A DNA stretch of 64,000 bases from Azospirillum thermophilum (GTDB taxonomy: Bacteria; Pseudomonadota; Alphaproteobacteria; Azospirillales; Azospirillaceae), in the NCBI RefSeq assembly GCF_003130795.1, contig NZ_CP029358.1:186001-250000 (forward strand), given 5' to 3'. Below the pieces are notes generated by a model, which was not told the DNA's origin, made no database searches, and worked only from the letters and a program-made list of their open reading frames with translations. Every line of letters begins with the position of its first letter. Position 1 is the first letter of the stretch. This document shows, in pieces, positions 17,012-23,104 of the stretch. The position numbers were made by a program, and so were the translations under genes.

Positions 17012-18277
17012 TTACTTCTTCGCCGGCGGCGCCGCCTGGCTTGAGGCTCCGCCGGCCGCCGGGGCTGCCGGACCCGGTGCCGCGGGAGCCTGCCCCTGTC
17101 CCTGCCCCTGGCTTTGGACACCCTGCCCCTGGGCGGCGGCGTTGGCGCCCGCCGCGCGCAGCAGCACCTGGGCGAGGTTGTCGCGCGCCTTGTCGGCGAG
17201 CACGACGTCGTTCTCCGTCGCCTCGTGGAACAGCACGGTGAACAGGCGCCCCTGGGCCAGCATGAAGGTCAGGGCGACGTGCAGCGTACCGTCCTTCAGT
17301 TCGCAGCGCACGGCGCCGGTGCGGACCGATACGGCGCCGGCCGCCTCGGTGTTGTTCAGGGCGATGGTGCCGGTGCCCTCGCAGCGGCTCTTCATCGCAT
17401 CGGCGAAGGCGCCGGACAGGTCGTCCAGCTTCGCCCCCTCCTCGACCACCCGCTCGCGGATGCCGCCGACCAGCGGACCGACGCGCCAGGCGACGTCGGC
17501 CGGGCGCTGGTCCTTCGGGATGTTGTCCATCGGCACCAGCTCCGGCCCGCGCAGGCCGGCCGCCGCCAGCAGGTCGACCAGCCCCGGCGGCAGCCTGGAG
17601 GTCTTGACGCCGGTGGAGGTGTTGATCGGCGGCACGTCACCCGCCTTGTCGACGCAGGTCTTCAGGTCGGTCAGGACCTTCTTGGTGCCCTTCAGCGTGA
17701 AGGCGATGCGGTCGCTGGCGGAGGAGACGACAAGCTGCTTCCCGTTCATCAGGGCGGTCACCAGCTCCTCGTCCTTGCCGTTCGGCACCACCAGCATGTC
17801 GGTGCCGGAGGCGACGGCGACCCGCTCGCGGGTCAGCTTGTTGTCGACCGCGACCTTGACCGGCCACTGCTCGCCCTTCGGCAGCTCGGCGCCGGGGATG
17901 CCGATGCCGATGTTGGTCTCGCCCTTCGGGCTGCGGGCGATCAGCAGGACATGGCCGGAGTTGAAGCGCCCCTCGACGACGCAATAGGCGAACTTGCCGT
18001 CCTTTTCCCGCGCCGCCCCGCCTTCCCAGCCGTCCTCCAGCTCCGCCGGTCCATCCTTGGCCGGCCCATCCTTGGCCGGGGCGGCGTTGGCTCCCTGCGC
18101 CTTGCCCGGGGCGGCGGAGGCCGCGGGCGGCGGCGCCACCGGCTCGGGCGAGGGCACGCCGTACATCAGGGCGGGCGGCAGCTCCGGCTCCACCGGCACC
18201 AGGTCGGCCAGCGCGGGACAGGCCGTTCCGCCGAGCAGGAGAAGGGTCGACAGCAGGGCGGAGCGGCGGACGGTCAT
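17012..18277 (-). CDS. Exported protein with Q/G-rich tail, unknown function
   Basis: 421 residues from the ATG at 18277. A signal peptide (residues 1-24, ending PALA), a proline/alanine-rich linker with a KDGPAKDGPA repeat (~50-75), then a domain with four cysteines (FAYCVVEG, DLKTCVD, KSRCEGT, VRCELKD). The end is low complexity (QGQGVQSQGQ, then Pro/Ala). The first part (FNSGHVLLIARSPKGETNIG) resembles secreted proteins that bind or inhibit, but I cannot place it in a family. Probably periplasmic. It stands alone. Confidence 0.75.
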   Translation of the reverse strand: MTVRRSALLSTLLLLGGTACPALADLVPVEPELPPALMYGVPSPEPVAPPPAASAAPGKAQGANAAPAKDGPAKDGPAELEDGWEGGAAREKDGKFAYCVVEGRFNSGHVLLIARSPKGETNIGIGIPGAELPKGEQWPVKVAVDNKLTRERVAVASGTDMLVVPNGKDEELVTALMNGKQLVVSSASDRIAFTLKGTKKVLTDLKTCVDKAGDVPPINTSTGVKTSRLPPGLVDLLAAAGLRGPELVPMDNIPKDQRPADVAWRVGPLVGGIRERVVEEGAKLDDLSGAFADAMKSRCEGTGTIALNNTEAAGAVSVRTGAVRCELKDGTLHVALTFMLAQGRLFTVLFHEATENDVVLADKARDNLAQVLLRAAGANAAAQGQGVQSQGQGQGQAPAAPGPAAPAAGGASSQAAPPAKK

Positions 18278-18398: not shown

Positions 18399-19103
18399 TT
18401 ACAGCCCGAGGAAGGTGTCCTGCAGGACGTCCTGCGACACCGCCCCGGCCGGCCCGTCATGGACGACGCGGCCGAGCCGCAGCAGGACCGCCCGCCCCGC
18501 CACCTCCAGCGCGCGCGCCGCGCTCTGCTCGGCCAGCAGCACCGCGGTGCCGGCCGCGGCGATCGAGCGCACCGCGGCGAACATCTCCCCCGCCAGCCGG
18601 GGCGACAGGCCGAGCGACGGTTCATCGAGCAGAAGCAGCCGCGGCCTGCCCATCAGCGCCCGGCCGACCGCCAGCATCTGCTGCTGCCCGCCCGACAGGC
18701 GCCAGGCGCTTTCCCGCGCCTTGGTCCGCAGGTCGGGGAACAGGGCGAAGATGCGCTCCAGGTCCGCTGCCCGCCCGTGGCGGTCGAGCGGGCTCGCGAC
18801 CTCCAGATTGTCCAGCACGCTCATGCCGGGGAAGACCCGCCGCCCCTCCGGCACATAGCCGAGGCCGAGGCGCACCCGCCGCTCCGCCGGCAGCGTGGTG
18901 ACCTCGCGGCCATCCAGCAGGACGCGCCCGCCGGCCGCCGGCAGCAGACCCAGCACCGCCTTCAGAAGGGTGGACTTGCCCGCCCCGTTGGCGCCGAGCA
19001 GCGCCACCGTCTCCCCCGCCGCGACGCTCAGCGAGACGCCGTCGACCGCCGTCACGCCGCCGGGGCCGGCGCGCAAGCCCTCCACCCGCAGAACGGCCGT
19101 CAT
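18399..19103 (-). CDS. HAAT-family ABC transporter ATP-binding protein (LivF-like)
   Basis: 234 residues with Walker A GANGAGKST, the signature LSGGQQQ, Walker B LLLLDEP and a switch histidine replaced by glutamine (LLAEQS), which is usual for LivF. It is the second ATPase of the branched-chain-amino-acid-type transporter and the last gene of the riboswitch-controlled operon; its ATG overlaps the stop of the fused permease-ATPase gene. From the operon leader I infer that the substrate is linked to thiamine metabolism rather than amino acids. Confidence 0.93.
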   Translation of the reverse strand: MTAVLRVEGLRAGPGGVTAVDGVSLSVAAGETVALLGANGAGKSTLLKAVLGLLPAAGGRVLLDGREVTTLPAERRVRLGLGYVPEGRRVFPGMSVLDNLEVASPLDRHGRAADLERIFALFPDLRTKARESAWRLSGGQQQMLAVGRALMGRPRLLLLDEPSLGLSPRLAGEMFAAVRSIAAAGTAVLLAEQSAARALEVAGRAVLLRLGRVVHDGPAGAVSQDVLQDTFLGL

Positions 19104-20824
19104 GCCTGCCCTCCCCGCCGGCCGGTTCCCAGATAGGCGGCGACCACCGCCGGATCGCGGCGCACCCCCTCCGGCGGCCCGGCATAGAGAAGGCGCCCCT
19201 GGTCGAGGCACAGAACATGGCCGGCGAGCGGCAGCAGGAAGCCCATGTCATGCTCCACCACCAGCAGGGCGGTACCCTCCGCCGCGACGCCGCGCAGCAG
19301 GGCCGCCAGCTCCGCCTTCTCGCCGTCGGTCAACCCGGCTGCCGGCTCGTCGAGCAGCAGCACCGCCGGCCGGCGGGCGAGCGCGCGGGCGAGATCGACC
19401 CGCCGCCGCAGCGCCGCCGGCAGCCCGGCGCAGGGGCTCGCCGCATGGCCGGCGATGCCCAGCCGGTCGAGGATCCGGTGCGCGGTCGCTTCGGCCTGCT
19501 CGACCGACCGGTCGAGCGTCAGCCGGGCGGCGGCCACCGCCTGCAGCACCGTCGCCCCTTCCGGCAGCGATCCCGCCTGGAAGGTCCGCGCGAGGCCGGC
19601 CGCCGCGATGCGGTCGGGACGCTGCCCGGCAAGCTCCCGCCCGCCCAGCCGGACCGATCCGGCATCCGGCCGCTCCAGCCCGGAGATCAGGTTGATGGCC
19701 GTCGTCTTTCCCGATCCATTCGGCCCGATCAGGCCGGTGATCGTCCCCGGCTCCAGCGGGAAGGACAGGCCGTCGACCGCCAGCACGCCGCCGAACCGCT
19801 TGGACAGGCCGTCGACCTGCAGCGCCGATCGGTTCGGCACGAGGCCCGGCTGTTCCGCAGGCTCCGCCGGGCGGCCCGGCAGCCGGACCCGCGGGCGCCC
19901 CGCCAACCGGTCGAGCAGCCCGGTCAGCCCCTCCGGCGCCAGCACGATCGCGGCCAGCAGGGCGCCGCCGTAGACGATCAGGTAGCTGCGCTCCAGCGCG
20001 CGGAACCACTCCGGCAGGTGGATCAGCAGGACGGCACCCAGCACGGCCCCGGCCATGCGGCCCCGGCCGCCGACCACGGCGATGGTCAGGATGGTCACCA
20101 TCACCGGGAACTCCAGCACCTCCGGCGAGACCACCCGCTGGGTATGGACCGCCAGGGCTCCCGCCGCCCCGGCGAACAGCGCGCTCATCGCGAAGGCCGC
20201 CAGCCGCAGCCGGCCGACATCCAGCCCCAGCGTCGCCGCCGCCAGCGGATCGTCCCGCAGCAGGGTGAGCGAGCGGCCGAAGCGGCCCCGTGCCAGGCTC
20301 CAGGCGATCACGCCGCCGGCCGCCACCGCTCCCCAGACCAGCAGAGCCATCGGCAGCCCGCGCCCGACCGGCCAGCCGAACAGCACGACCCCCGGCACGC
20401 CGGGAATGCCGTTGGCCCCGCCGGTCAGCCCAGGCAGGTTGACCGCCAGCAGAAGCAGGACCTGCGCGACGCCCAGCGTCGCCAGCGCGAAGTAATGCGA
20501 TTCCAGCCGCAGCACCGGCAGCCCGACCAGCAGGGCGGCCAGCAGCGGGACCAGCAGCGACAGCGGAAAGGTCAGGGCGAAGCCCCAGCCCATCTGCGTC
20601 GCCAGCAGGCCGGTGGTGTAGGCGCCGAGCCCGAAGAAGGCGCCCTGGGCCAGCGACAGGGCGCCGCCCAGCCCGAAGACGATCTGGAAGCCGAAGGTGG
20701 CGAGCGCATAGACCCCCGCCACGGTCAGCACCCGCAGCCCGTAGGGCGTGGCGTAGCCGACCGCGTAGAGGCCGAGCGCCAGGGCGCCGAGCGTCAGCAG
20801 CAGAGGGGAGAGCCGGTCACGCAC
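19100..20824 (-). CDS. Fused HAAT-family permease and ATP-binding protein (LivM-LivG-like)
   Basis: 574 residues. Residues ~1-310 form a LivM-type permease with eight or more helices (LSLAQGAFFGLGAY and the cytoplasmic loop FGRSLTLLRDDPLAA). After a linker (~310-335) comes a LivG-type ATPase with Walker A GPNGSGKT, a signature loop that is weak (AGLPAALRRR in place of LSGGQ), Walker B VLLLDEP and switch VVEHDM. LivM-LivG fusions are known but less common than separate genes. It starts at GTG 20824, overlapping the LivH stop, and its end overlaps LivF. Part of the TPP-riboswitch operon. Confidence 0.92.
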   Translation of the reverse strand: MRDRLSPLLLTLGALALGLYAVGYATPYGLRVLTVAGVYALATFGFQIVFGLGGALSLAQGAFFGLGAYTTGLLATQMGWGFALTFPLSLLVPLLAALLVGLPVLRLESHYFALATLGVAQVLLLLAVNLPGLTGGANGIPGVPGVVLFGWPVGRGLPMALLVWGAVAAGGVIAWSLARGRFGRSLTLLRDDPLAAATLGLDVGRLRLAAFAMSALFAGAAGALAVHTQRVVSPEVLEFPVMVTILTIAVVGGRGRMAGAVLGAVLLIHLPEWFRALERSYLIVYGGALLAAIVLAPEGLTGLLDRLAGRPRVRLPGRPAEPAEQPGLVPNRSALQVDGLSKRFGGVLAVDGLSFPLEPGTITGLIGPNGSGKTTAINLISGLERPDAGSVRLGGRELAGQRPDRIAAAGLARTFQAGSLPEGATVLQAVAAARLTLDRSVEQAEATAHRILDRLGIAGHAASPCAGLPAALRRRVDLARALARRPAVLLLDEPAAGLTDGEKAELAALLRGVAAEGTALLVVEHDMGFLLPLAGHVLCLDQGRLLYAGPPEGVRRDPAVVAAYLGTGRRGGQA

Positions 20825-21700
20825 GGCGCCGCGCCGCCTCGCCGAACAGGCCCTGCGGCCGGGCGACCAGGATGACCAGCAGCGTGGCATAGAGCAGCCC
20901 GAGCGCCACCGGGTAGGAGAGCAGCGAGGACACCCCCACCTCGAACAGCGCGATCAGCAGCGCGCCCGCCACCGCCCCGGGAACGGAGCCCCAGCCGCCG
21001 ATGGTCACGGCGATGTAGGCCTTCAGGATCAGGTCGCCGCCCGCGGTCGGCGTCACGAAATAGCGGTTGGCGAGCAGCAGGCCCGCCGCCCGGCGAAGGC
21101 GGCGGCGATGGCGAAGGTCAGCAGGATCATCCCCGTCACCGGCACGCCGCAGGCCCGCGCCATCTCCGGATCCTGCGCCGTCGCGCGCAGCCGCCGGCCG
21201 AGCTGCGTGCGGCCGAACACCCATTGCTGCAGACCGATCAGCAGCGCCGCCACCGCGACGATGGCGAGCGACTGTTCCGGCACCACGAGGTCGCCGACGC
21301 GCAGCGTCTGCCCGGTGACCAGCGGCGGCGCGGCCCGCGGCTCCGGCCCGAACAGGACGGAGGCGCCGTTCTGCAGGATGATGCCGACCGCGATGGTGCT
21401 GATGAAGACCGCGACCGGCGGCCGGCCGCGCAGCGGCAGATAGGCCACGGCGGCAAGCAGCAGTCCCAGCCCCGCCATCAGCGCCATCACCAGCGGCAAC
21501 AGCAGCAGGCCCGGCAGCGGCACCGCCTGCGCCACCGGCGGGGCGAGCGCCACCGCCAGCAGCCCGCCGGCCATGACGAGGTCGCCCTGCGCGAAATTCA
21601 CCGCCGCGGTGGCGTTCAGCACCAGGACGAAGCCGAGCGCCACCAGCGCATAGGCCGCCCCCAGCGCGACCCCGTTCAGGAGGAGCTGGAGGGCGGTCAT
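20817..21700 (-). pseudogene. HAAT-family permease (LivH-like), frameshifted (probable sequence error)
   Basis: The N-terminal ~200 residues from the ATG at 21700 form a LivH-type permease (NFAQGDLVMAGG, LFGPEP). At the CCC run 21089-21091 the frame shifts and the rest (AAGLLLANRYF to FGEAARRRA) follows in another frame. One extra C on the plus strand (G in the minus strand) restores a 294-residue protein, normal for LivH. The operon is otherwise complete, so a homopolymer undercall is the best explanation. It starts four bases after the binding-protein stop. Confidence 0.85.
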
Positions 21701-21704
21701 GGCC

Positions 21705-22865
21705 TTACTTCACCACGCCCGTGACGTTGTCGTAGCGCTTCGCCACCGCCGGCACGCGCGAGGTGCCGTCGAAGCAGACGATGACGGCGGAATGCGCCAT
21801 GTTCCCCTTGCCGTCCGAGGCATAGGTCATGGCGAGGCCCCGGTAGCTGGTGGCGGACAGCGCCTTGCGGATCTCCTCGGGCGTGCGGGCGCCGGCCCTG
21901 GCCGCCTCCACCGCCATGCGCATGCCGTCATACTGGCCGAGCGCGAAGGCGTCCGGCTCCGCATTGAAGGCGGCGCGGTAGGCGCGGGTGAACGACTCCA
22001 TCTCCGGCGAGCCGCCGGAAATGGGCGAGGCGGCGGTCTCCGCGCACACGCCCTTCAATTCGGCCGGCTCCAGCAGGGCGGCCGTGCTCGGCTGGTGCAT
22101 GGCGGAGCCGGCGACGATCGGCACCGTCACCCCGTTGGCCGCCGCCTGCCGCAGCAGCAGCGCCGTCGGTCCGGCATGGAGGTGCAGCACCAGCACGTCG
22201 GGATTGGCGGCGAGCGCCTTGGTCAGCACCGGCAGCAGGTCCTTGGCGGCGGGATCGACCCCCTCCTCGAACACCGGCTCGACGCCCAGCGCCTTGAAGG
22301 CGGCGGCGAGGTGGGTCCGGCCGCTCTGGCCATAGGCGGTGGTCTGGTAGATGACCGCCGGCCGCGTCCTGCCCAGCTCCTCCACCACATAGCGGGCATG
22401 GGCGGTCTTGGTCACCGCGTCGCCGGGGAAGAAGCGGAAGACCCAGGGATTGCCCTGTTCCGTGATCGAGGCGGTGCCGGACACGGTGATCAGCGGCAGC
22501 TTCAGCTCCGCCGCCAGCGGCAGCATGGCGAGCATCTGGGTGCCCAGCATGCTGGCCGCCACGCCGGCCACCCGGCCGCGCCCGGCCGCCCGCTCCAGCG
22601 CCGTCACCGCGGCTTCGGGCGAGGTGCCGGTATCGATCACCTCGCCGGCCACGGCGACGTCGGGCGGGGCCTCCTTCAGCGCCAGCAGCGCGCCGTTGCG
22701 CTGGCTGGTGCCTTCCAGCGACAGGAAGCCGGTCAGCGGCACCAGGACCGGGAAGGCGGCGGGCTCCCCCGATCCGGCCGCGCGGGCCGCCGGAGGGGCA
22801 GCCGTGGCGAGGGCCGATCCTGCGATCAGGGAGGCCGCGATCAGGGAGTGGGTAAGCCGCCGCAT
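21705..22865 (-). CDS. HAAT-family periplasmic substrate-binding protein (LivK-like)
   Basis: 386 residues: a Sec signal peptide (to about residue 29, AARA), then a type I periplasmic binding fold (PVLVPLTGFLSLEGTSQRNG, FFPGDAVTK, ALGQYDGMRM). This is the Peripla_BP_6 family that usually binds branched-chain amino acids, amides or aromatic acids. It is the first gene after the TPP riboswitch and has a strong AGGAGGA site eight bases before the ATG. I infer a thiamine-related ligand (thiamine, a pyrimidine or thiazole moiety, or a breakdown product); the sequence alone does not show which. Confidence 0.93.
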   Translation of the reverse strand: MRRLTHSLIAASLIAGSALATAAPPAARAAGSGEPAAFPVLVPLTGFLSLEGTSQRNGALLALKEAPPDVAVAGEVIDTGTSPEAAVTALERAAGRGRVAGVAASMLGTQMLAMLPLAAELKLPLITVSGTASITEQGNPWVFRFFPGDAVTKTAHARYVVEELGRTRPAVIYQTTAYGQSGRTHLAAAFKALGVEPVFEEGVDPAAKDLLPVLTKALAANPDVLVLHLHAGPTALLLRQAAANGVTVPIVAGSAMHQPSTAALLEPAELKGVCAETAASPISGGSPEMESFTRAYRAAFNAEPDAFALGQYDGMRMAVEAARAGARTPEEIRKALSATSYRGLAMTYASDGKGNMAHSAVIVCFDGTSRVPAVAKRYDNVTGVVK

Positions 22866-22873
22866 GTCGTCTC

Positions 22874-22922
22874 TCCTCCTGCTGCCCGGGCATGGCGGGC
22901 GGGGAGGCCGTCGCGAGGAGGA
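22874..22922 (-). promoter_or_regulatory. Possible Shine-Dalgarno sequestering pair (riboswitch expression platform)
   Basis: The Shine-Dalgarno AGGAGGA at 22874-22880 is fully complementary to TCCTCCT at 22916-22922, 35 bases upstream in the same leader. Pairing would hide the ribosome site, as in translational TPP riboswitches. A perfect 12-bp palindrome GTTCTCGAGAAC at 22936-22947 sits between this element and the aptamer. No U-tract terminator is seen, which favours translational control. Confidence 0.5.
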
Positions 22923-22950
22923 TGCCGGTCCGGCGGTTCTCGAGAACGGG

Positions 22951-23028
22951 CGGCTCCCTTCGCCGGCATGACCCGGATCAGGTTCGATGGGTGTCTCTCA
23001 GCCCGCGTCGCCGCAGGCACCCCAGCCG
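22951..23028 (-). promoter_or_regulatory. TPP riboswitch (THI element) aptamer
   Basis: Read on the minus strand, this 78-base region has all the conserved parts of the TPP aptamer: P1 closed by CGGCT (23024-23028) with AGCCG (22951-22955), the GGGGTGC block, CTGAGA (22996-23001), the core CCTGATC (22976-22982) with CGGGTCATGCCGGCG, and the closing GAAGGGA. It lies 85 bases before the start of the LivK-like gene, with no other gene between. In bacteria this aptamer lowers expression when thiamine pyrophosphate is abundant. Confidence 0.95.
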
Positions 23029-23104
23029 TGTGGTGGCGCGAGAGTTGGACCGGGGCGGGCGGCTTGTCAACCCCGGTCCTTGGCCCTGCCCTTCGATCCG
23101 GCGC

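Follow-up and report, generated by a model that had tools for sequence, protein, structure and literature searches.

The stretch of Azospirillum thermophilum DNA analyzed here (contig NZ_CP029358.1, positions 186,001 to 250,000; hereafter the window, 64,000 nucleotides in full) carries an operon for an ATP-binding cassette (ABC) importer of the HAAT family, located directly behind a complete thiamine pyrophosphate (TPP) riboswitch. The riboswitch is retained in front of most orthologous operons, and the operon very probably imports some compound related to vitamin B1 (thiamine). The first-pass annotation of this DNA had proposed an importer of thiamine, one of its moieties or a breakdown product, a proposal now supported by the covariance-model score and by the conservation of the riboswitch before orthologues. 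The substrate is probably either the thiazole half of the vitamin or B1 itself, and the candidate that we tentatively favor is the thiazole half, either as hydroxyethylthiazole (HET) or in a closely related form, for example carboxy-HET. The riboswitch and the operon comprise the following features.

22938..23034, minus strand: complete TPP riboswitch aptamer (RF00059; 68.5 bits against a gathering threshold of 54.3, E-value 2.3e-11, model positions 1-105 of 105)
22866..22937, minus strand: leader from the aptamer to the start codon, with a strong Shine-Dalgarno sequence, AGGAGGAG, read from the sequence
21705..22865, minus strand: substrate-binding protein (SBP), HAAT LivK-like, 386 amino acids (PF13458, Peripla_BP_6, 163 bits, 2e-47)
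20817..21700, minus strand: LivH-like permease, frame broken between approximately 21068 and 21089 (PF02653 in both pieces)
19100..20824, minus strand: LivM-LivG fusion of permease and ATPase (PF02653, PF00005, PF12399), with a GTG start at approximately 20824 assigned from the sequence
18399..19103, minus strand: LivF-like ATPase (PF00005, 8.5e-32), with a start at 19103 in an ATGA overlap, assigned from the sequence

The first-pass annotation had placed a complete TPP aptamer before the LivK-like gene, and the full-length covariance-model match above the gathering threshold bears this out. Its coordinates for the aptamer, 22951-23028, fall inside the model match, although the full match is wider, and the spacing of 85 nucleotides that it gave to the ATG at 22865 becomes 72 when counted from the end of that match. 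RF00059 was the sole Rfam family to score above threshold when all 64 kb of the window were searched with cmscan. In a search of the whole genome the same aptamer again exceeded the cut-off, being one of four TPP sites, the others preceding thiC, thiO-thiG, and a ThiZXY-type system. Within the leader, predicted folds show a UCCUCCU segment upstream of the Shine-Dalgarno sequence that is able to pair with it; an equally good pairing was obtained in 14% of 200 shuffled sequences, and the fold z-scores were 0.61 and -0.26. As a general device such pairing was not supported: at least seven contiguous pairs occurred in 23 of 39 distinct leaders, yet in only 6 of the 39 did no more than 6% of the shuffles do as well. 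Translational control by sequestration of the Shine-Dalgarno sequence is thus plausible from the leader sequence, without statistical support.

The genes for the SBP, LivH, the LivM-LivG fusion, and LivF follow the aptamer in this order on the same strand, and together contain what defines a HAAT system, namely a PF13458 SBP, two PF02653 permeases, and two ABC ATPases in one operon; all these parts are also present in the copy from a SAR116 genome. The starts of LivM and LivF are later than those of the longest open reading frames, and the N-terminus of the SBP resembles, by eye, a signal peptide. The order of LivK-, LivH-, LivM-LivG-, and LivF-like genes had been described correctly in the first-pass annotation, but LivH is not intact: PF02653 matches it in two separate frames, and tblastn likewise returned two segments in different frames, whereas the gene occupies a single frame in all five relatives compared. 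In the same assembly (6.78 Mb, nine contigs), thiC is also split between two frames (contig C2, L037:5534-7320, plus strand). Since both genes are broken in this way, indel errors in the assembly are more likely than genuine decay of both.

To assess how firmly riboswitch and transporter are linked, orthologous loci were compared. Of the 82 genomes covered by the order search, all of one family, 50 encode an orthologue of the SBP (identity 64-84%): 44 of 45 Azospirillum, all five Skermanella, and the one genome of a third genus. A TPP riboswitch lies directly upstream of the SBP gene in every one of them (30 of 30 and nine of nine loci scanned, and 11 read from coordinates). The only congener among the 45 without the transporter at an E-value of 1e-40, G006, has three TPP sites, and the 44 transporter-bearing Azospirillum genomes have four or five in 41 cases, three in G018 and G042, and two in G031; the number of sites by itself proves little. 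A wider search, with one genome per species, used an alignment of 14 orthologues and two conserved 8-residue patterns and is therefore biased to close relatives. Among the best 80 of the 149 relatives that it yielded, 65 have a riboswitch before the SBP gene according to a covariance model trained on 14 riboswitches from bacteria of the family, 13 of them from this operon. These include all 32 records from Azospirillum, Skermanella, and related entries and 33 of the 48 remaining ones, for instance those of Nisaea, Thalassobaculum, and SAR116 and numerous metagenome-assembled genomes (MAGs) of Rhodospirillaceae. With the Rfam model, applied to whole genomes outside Azospirillum, the site scored above gathering in 26 of 31; in the other five (G089, G090, G094, G098, and G109) it reached 47.0-53.4 bits, below the threshold of 54.3. 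The aptamer lies on the same strand, 21-83 nucleotides before the assigned SBP start, in all 39 loci measured. The first-pass annotation had proposed checking orthologues in other genomes for this arrangement, and the 50 of 50 family genomes and 65 of 80 named-record relatives show it. On the model score and this conservation, chance or artifact was rejected as the source of the link.

No riboswitch was found before the SBP gene in the remaining 15 of the 80 relatives, 12 of which also lack an Rfam hit; one of the 15 (L110) cannot be judged, being at a contig edge, and another (L099) has little upstream sequence. Riboswitch-bearing loci are scattered across the SBP tree. Of the 15 without it, 13 form two groups, of 11 (support 94/97) and 2 (91/87) members, adjoining the Azospirillum-Skermanella group. 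At least three changes of the riboswitch label are needed on the tree, one of them at the unjudgeable L110.

For the identity of the substrate, the thiamin genes of carriers were examined in 31 riboswitch-bearing genomes outside Azospirillum, one from Skermanella and 30 others, mostly MAGs of unstated completeness; the TPP-site search in these genomes used strict filters, by which weak sites may be lost. ThiC is encoded in 6 of the 31, and full-length ThiG (>324 bits) in one, the Skermanella genome. Five carriers (G089, G090, G094, G097, and G108) retain ThiC without full-length ThiG, and the reverse pattern was found in none of the 31. Among the 25 carriers with neither gene, a further TPP site controls ThiXYZ, entered as a hydroxymethylpyrimidine (HMP) transporter in PMC6593275, in 21, and a distant NMT1-type system in another (G101). 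Thus, 27 of the 31 carriers have a TPP-controlled source of pyrimidine (ThiC in 6 and ThiXYZ in 21 more; 28 if the distant system of G101 is included), but 30 have no full-length ThiG, and it is for this reason that the thiazole half is favored. Individual genomes point the same way. In G090 and G094, TPP sites were found only at thiC and the HAAT operon, so that the thiazole half is what would have to come from outside. MAG G055, of the same family as the window's genome, has three TPP sites, at thiC, thiM-thiE, and the HAAT operon, and Thalassobaculum fulvum (G096), in which neither ThiC nor full-length ThiG was found, has sites at thiM-thiE, ThiXY, and the HAAT operon. In both, assignment of the other sites leaves the HAAT system as the only TPP-controlled transporter seen that could supply thiazole. 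ThiM is the known HET kinase. In the table of PMC6593275, ThiC-ThiD-ThiE-ThiM denotes a HET auxotroph and ThiD-ThiE-ThiM a dual auxotroph for HMP and HET; a requirement for HET is marked there by ThiM, with or without ThiC, in the absence of ThiG, a pattern with which G055 and T. fulvum can be compared. A Pseudolabrys MAG (G124) that carries the transporter without the riboswitch has both thiC and thiM-thiE-thiD under TPP control and a weak partial ThiG match only; of its ThiC, only a contig-end fragment was seen, which the ThiC search did not pick up. Full-length ThiG is present in 1 of 31 carriers versus 6 of 12 riboswitch-less relatives (Fisher p = 0.0009), and ThiC in 6 of 31 versus 5 of 12 (p = 0.24).

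We cautiously propose that the operon represents a new class of HET-type importer, an amino acid-type ABC system that may have been drawn into thiamin regulation in Rhodospirillales-like Alphaproteobacteria and that would replace thiazole synthesis in auxotrophs for both halves of B1, with the two halves imported by two TPP-switched ABC systems. When TPP is scarce, the riboswitch would permit expression of the SBP, LivH, LivM/G, and LivF; when TPP is plentiful, it would shut the operon off, possibly at translation. The periplasmic SBP would capture HET or a carboxy-HET-like derivative, which the two permeases and two ATPases would carry inward, and the compound would then be phosphorylated, by ThiM where present and by another kinase elsewhere, and joined by ThiE to HMP pyrophosphate (HMP-PP). 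The proposal implies a further thiazole kinase in carriers without ThiM.

Several observations weigh against the thiazole reading. Outside Azospirillum, a strong ThiM match (PF02110) was obtained in only 1 of the 31 carriers, in addition to G055, and none in the 45 Azospirillum genomes, which gave weak partial matches only, the best of them (G010) at 27.8 bits, just above the 27-bit cut-off. With ThiM missing, most carriers are without the known enzyme for phosphorylating HET, so that the reading requires either another kinase or a phosphorylated substrate. The window's genome itself has thiG as well as a thiC gene whose frame is broken in this assembly, so that need for thiazole does not explain the HAAT system there. 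Three carriers, G098 and the SAR116-like G111 and G112, show, under the strict filters, a TPP site at the HAAT operon alone. Most of the 31 carriers are MAGs without completeness values, and 10 of the 30 counted as ThiG-less contain partial ThiG matches (20.7-33 bits, 74-110 positions), which, the Pfam cut-off for ThiG being as low as 23 bits, were taken as other proteins and not counted. The ThiG contrast is drawn with riboswitch-less relatives rather than with related genomes devoid of the transporter, and only two phylogenetically independent pairs stand behind it, so that the correlation is not secured. ThiE, ThiD, ThiL, and Thi4, and in G055 also ThiG, were outside the genome-wide search. 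Finally, a B1-type ThiXYZ2 also appears in the list of PMC6593275.

A close rival, in our view a real if lesser possibility, is that the system imports intact thiamine or its phosphates, thiamine monophosphate (TMP) and TPP, as a functional stand-in for ThiBPQ. Whole B1 would suffice for genomes in which full-length ThiG (30 of 31), ThiC (25 of 31), and, for the most part, ThiM are missing, and a sole TPP site at the HAAT operon, as in G098, G111, and G112, fits this well. Consistently, ThiB exceeded the cut-off in just 1 of the 82 family genomes and in none of the 45 Azospirillum. Uptake of TMP or TPP would require no thiamine kinase, and thiamine pyrophosphokinase (TPK) was found neither in the 82 family genomes nor in the 43 genomes of a second search, the 31 carriers included; free thiamine would require a kinase, although the search for one covered the TPK family only. 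Import of the intact vitamin leaves unexplained, however, why five carriers keep ThiC without ThiG, why 21 of the 25 ThiC-less carriers have a TPP-controlled ThiXYZ, and why G055 and Thalassobaculum maintain thiM-thiE operons.

That the operon encodes a genuine amino acid importer is unlikely. TPP control might in this case reflect a halt of TPP-dependent acetolactate synthase, and thus of branched-chain amino acid synthesis, or the use of glycine or tyrosine in thiazole synthesis. The architecture is that of branched-chain amino acid transporters, and in sequence searches the solved structures matched by the SBP, at low similarity, are those of LivK-type proteins. Yet the NCBIfam Liv models score far below their curated cut-offs (SBP, 40.7 of 477 bits; LivG part, 169.8 of 362; LivF, 172.1 of 441; and the N-terminal piece of LivH alone, 70.7 of 379), and the plasmid records listed show an abrupt drop in identity, from 83% directly to 31.5%. 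Alignment to the solved structures shows that the SBP keeps the Ser-Gly-Thr loop (S129-G130-T131) and Tyr178. The acidic position of 3td9, 4gnr, and 3ipc, which we take to face the ammonium group of the ligand, is instead Ser254 in all 81 members aligned, and a position that we presume to be Ser79 of LivJ, with residue roles taken from the LIV-binding protein, is Leu or Phe. His257 is present in all 66 riboswitch-linked members versus 10 of the 15 others. These residues would suit a ligand that is not one of the standard amino acids, although they are no proof: 3hut, a putative amino acid SBP, has Ser at the acidic position as well, and 4ey3, which presumably binds aromatic acids, has Asp. Import of amino acids also leaves the link to missing ThiG unexplained.

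Similarly improbable is import of the pyrimidine half or of its salvage forms, namely HMP, aminomethylpyrimidine (AmMP), and formylaminopyrimidine (FAMP). This possibility was favored on the ThiC result, given that 25 of the 31 carriers lack the enzyme, and was dropped once full-length ThiG had been found missing in 30. TenA-family proteins, present in 73 of the 82 family genomes, would be in line with pyrimidine salvage, and a passage of PMC10470507 raises the question of the transporters responsible for uptake of FAMP and AmMP. However, in most carriers this role is already filled by ThiXYZ, full-length ThiG without ThiC occurs in none of the 31, and a pyrimidine importer would bring no gain to the ThiC-positive carriers in which no other TPP-controlled transporter was seen (G055, G090, and G094). 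Nucleobase salvage, suggested by neighboring genes (a PyrE-like protein is encoded downstream in 14 loci and confirmed as PyrE for Nisaea), was likewise rejected, as the neighbors differ between lineages; nucleoside-catabolism genes flank the HAAT operon in Azospirillum ramasamyi. An accidental neighborhood, with the riboswitch serving another gene or being a remnant, finds support only in the 15 of 80 relatives without the riboswitch and is hardly credible: in every one of the 39 loci measured the aptamer lies on the same strand, 21-83 nucleotides ahead of the SBP start, and it is kept across the SBP tree.

Compared with known systems, the operon resembles the HAAT/Liv importers (LivKHMGF; the NCBIfam Liv models and PDB 3td9) in its PF13458 SBP, two PF02653 permeases, and LivG- and LivF-type ATPases, but differs in the fusion of LivM to LivG, in the TPP riboswitch, and in the incomplete conservation, in the alignment, of the residues that hold the amino acid headgroup. 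ThiBPQ, the importer of thiamine, TMP, and TPP, is similarly a periplasmic ABC uptake system of the thiamin regulon; the window SBP does not match TIGR01254, the family of its binding protein. ThiXYZ, the NMT1-type importer of HMP and FAMP, is also a TPP-riboswitch ABC importer and occurs in most of the same genomes, but consists of a PF09084 SBP, one permease, and one ATPase, all of different protein families; PF09084 is not matched by the window SBP, whereas the separate TPP-controlled ThiY of the same genome does match it. ThiW and ThiU are membrane proteins without a periplasmic SBP and are set apart from the HAAT system by this description rather than by sequence. What they would share with it is the thiazole-salvage role predicted for them in the table of PMC6593275, in which they are the HET transporters; thiW is described in a passage of PMC6478431 as being under TPP and HMP-PP riboswitches. 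No HAAT system under a TPP riboswitch was found in searches of the open-access literature, RegPrecise and subscription papers being outside this scope, so that a RegPrecise entry is possible. The main text of PMC3766115, as distinct from its supplements, contains neither "Rhodospirillales" nor "branched-chain", and the marine B1 transporter tables of PMC10881298 and PMC10470507 name no HAAT system. Each part is of a known kind, HAAT importer and TPP riboswitch alike; the searches turned up neither their combination nor its wide conservation nor its link to the absence of thiazole synthesis.

Other loci deserve mention. In the window, the next gene downstream of livF on the same strand (17012-18277, minus strand) encodes a conserved hypothetical protein of approximately 421 amino acids, counted from the Met at 18277, without a match in Pfam or NCBIfam; its cluster is represented in 26 of the 81 loci clustered. 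Several members of the riboswitch-less group are titled Betaproteobacteria. An Fe-type alcohol dehydrogenase is encoded in or beside the transporter operon in five riboswitch-less loci (L097, L099, L102, L111, and L116), an aldehyde dehydrogenase is found nearby in L111 and L116, and an AurF-like di-iron protein is encoded near six, the single Pfam match made for it being below the cut-off. This group may possibly break down the same hydroxyethyl-bearing compound or one akin to it. In L104 (2017-12365), a gene for a TPP-dependent enzyme follows livF, and in L101 (2367-5854) and L104 the riboswitch-less HAAT operon is located downstream of genes for siroheme synthase, sulfite reductase, and a DUF934 protein. 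The SBP of L107, titled as a Klebsiella pneumoniae MAG, adjoins that of the Betaproteobacteria MAG L108 on very short branches, and the record title is probably wrong. TPP riboswitches also precede genes for putative 2-aminoethylphosphonate SBPs (TIGR03261) in G085 (L191:5615-6655, minus strand) and G118 (L203:1714-2751, plus strand), which score 447 and 465 bits, above the cut-off of 393, and an SBP of the same TPP-linked type, 87% identical to the G118 copy, is encoded in G116 (L154); these SBPs are a candidate for a further misnamed B1-related transporter. The riboswitch before the distant NMT1-type ABC system of G101 (contig C22, L195) heads an operon with genes for LuxE-like, short-chain dehydrogenase/reductase, and GcvT-like proteins, names that were given by eye.

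Proteins of this HAAT family are labeled as amino acid transport in several sources. Consequently, a B1-related uptake route may be overlooked in the carriers, which include Nisaea, Thalassobaculum, a SAR116 genome, and marine MAGs of Rhodospirillaceae. The known set of B1-precursor transporters is incomplete: according to PMC6593275, only 64% of HET auxotrophs have ThiW. Once defined, the substrate of the HAAT system would allow predictions of auxotrophy to be corrected and would provide a testable route by which B1 halves could be exchanged, both in plankton and in Azospirillum associated with plants.

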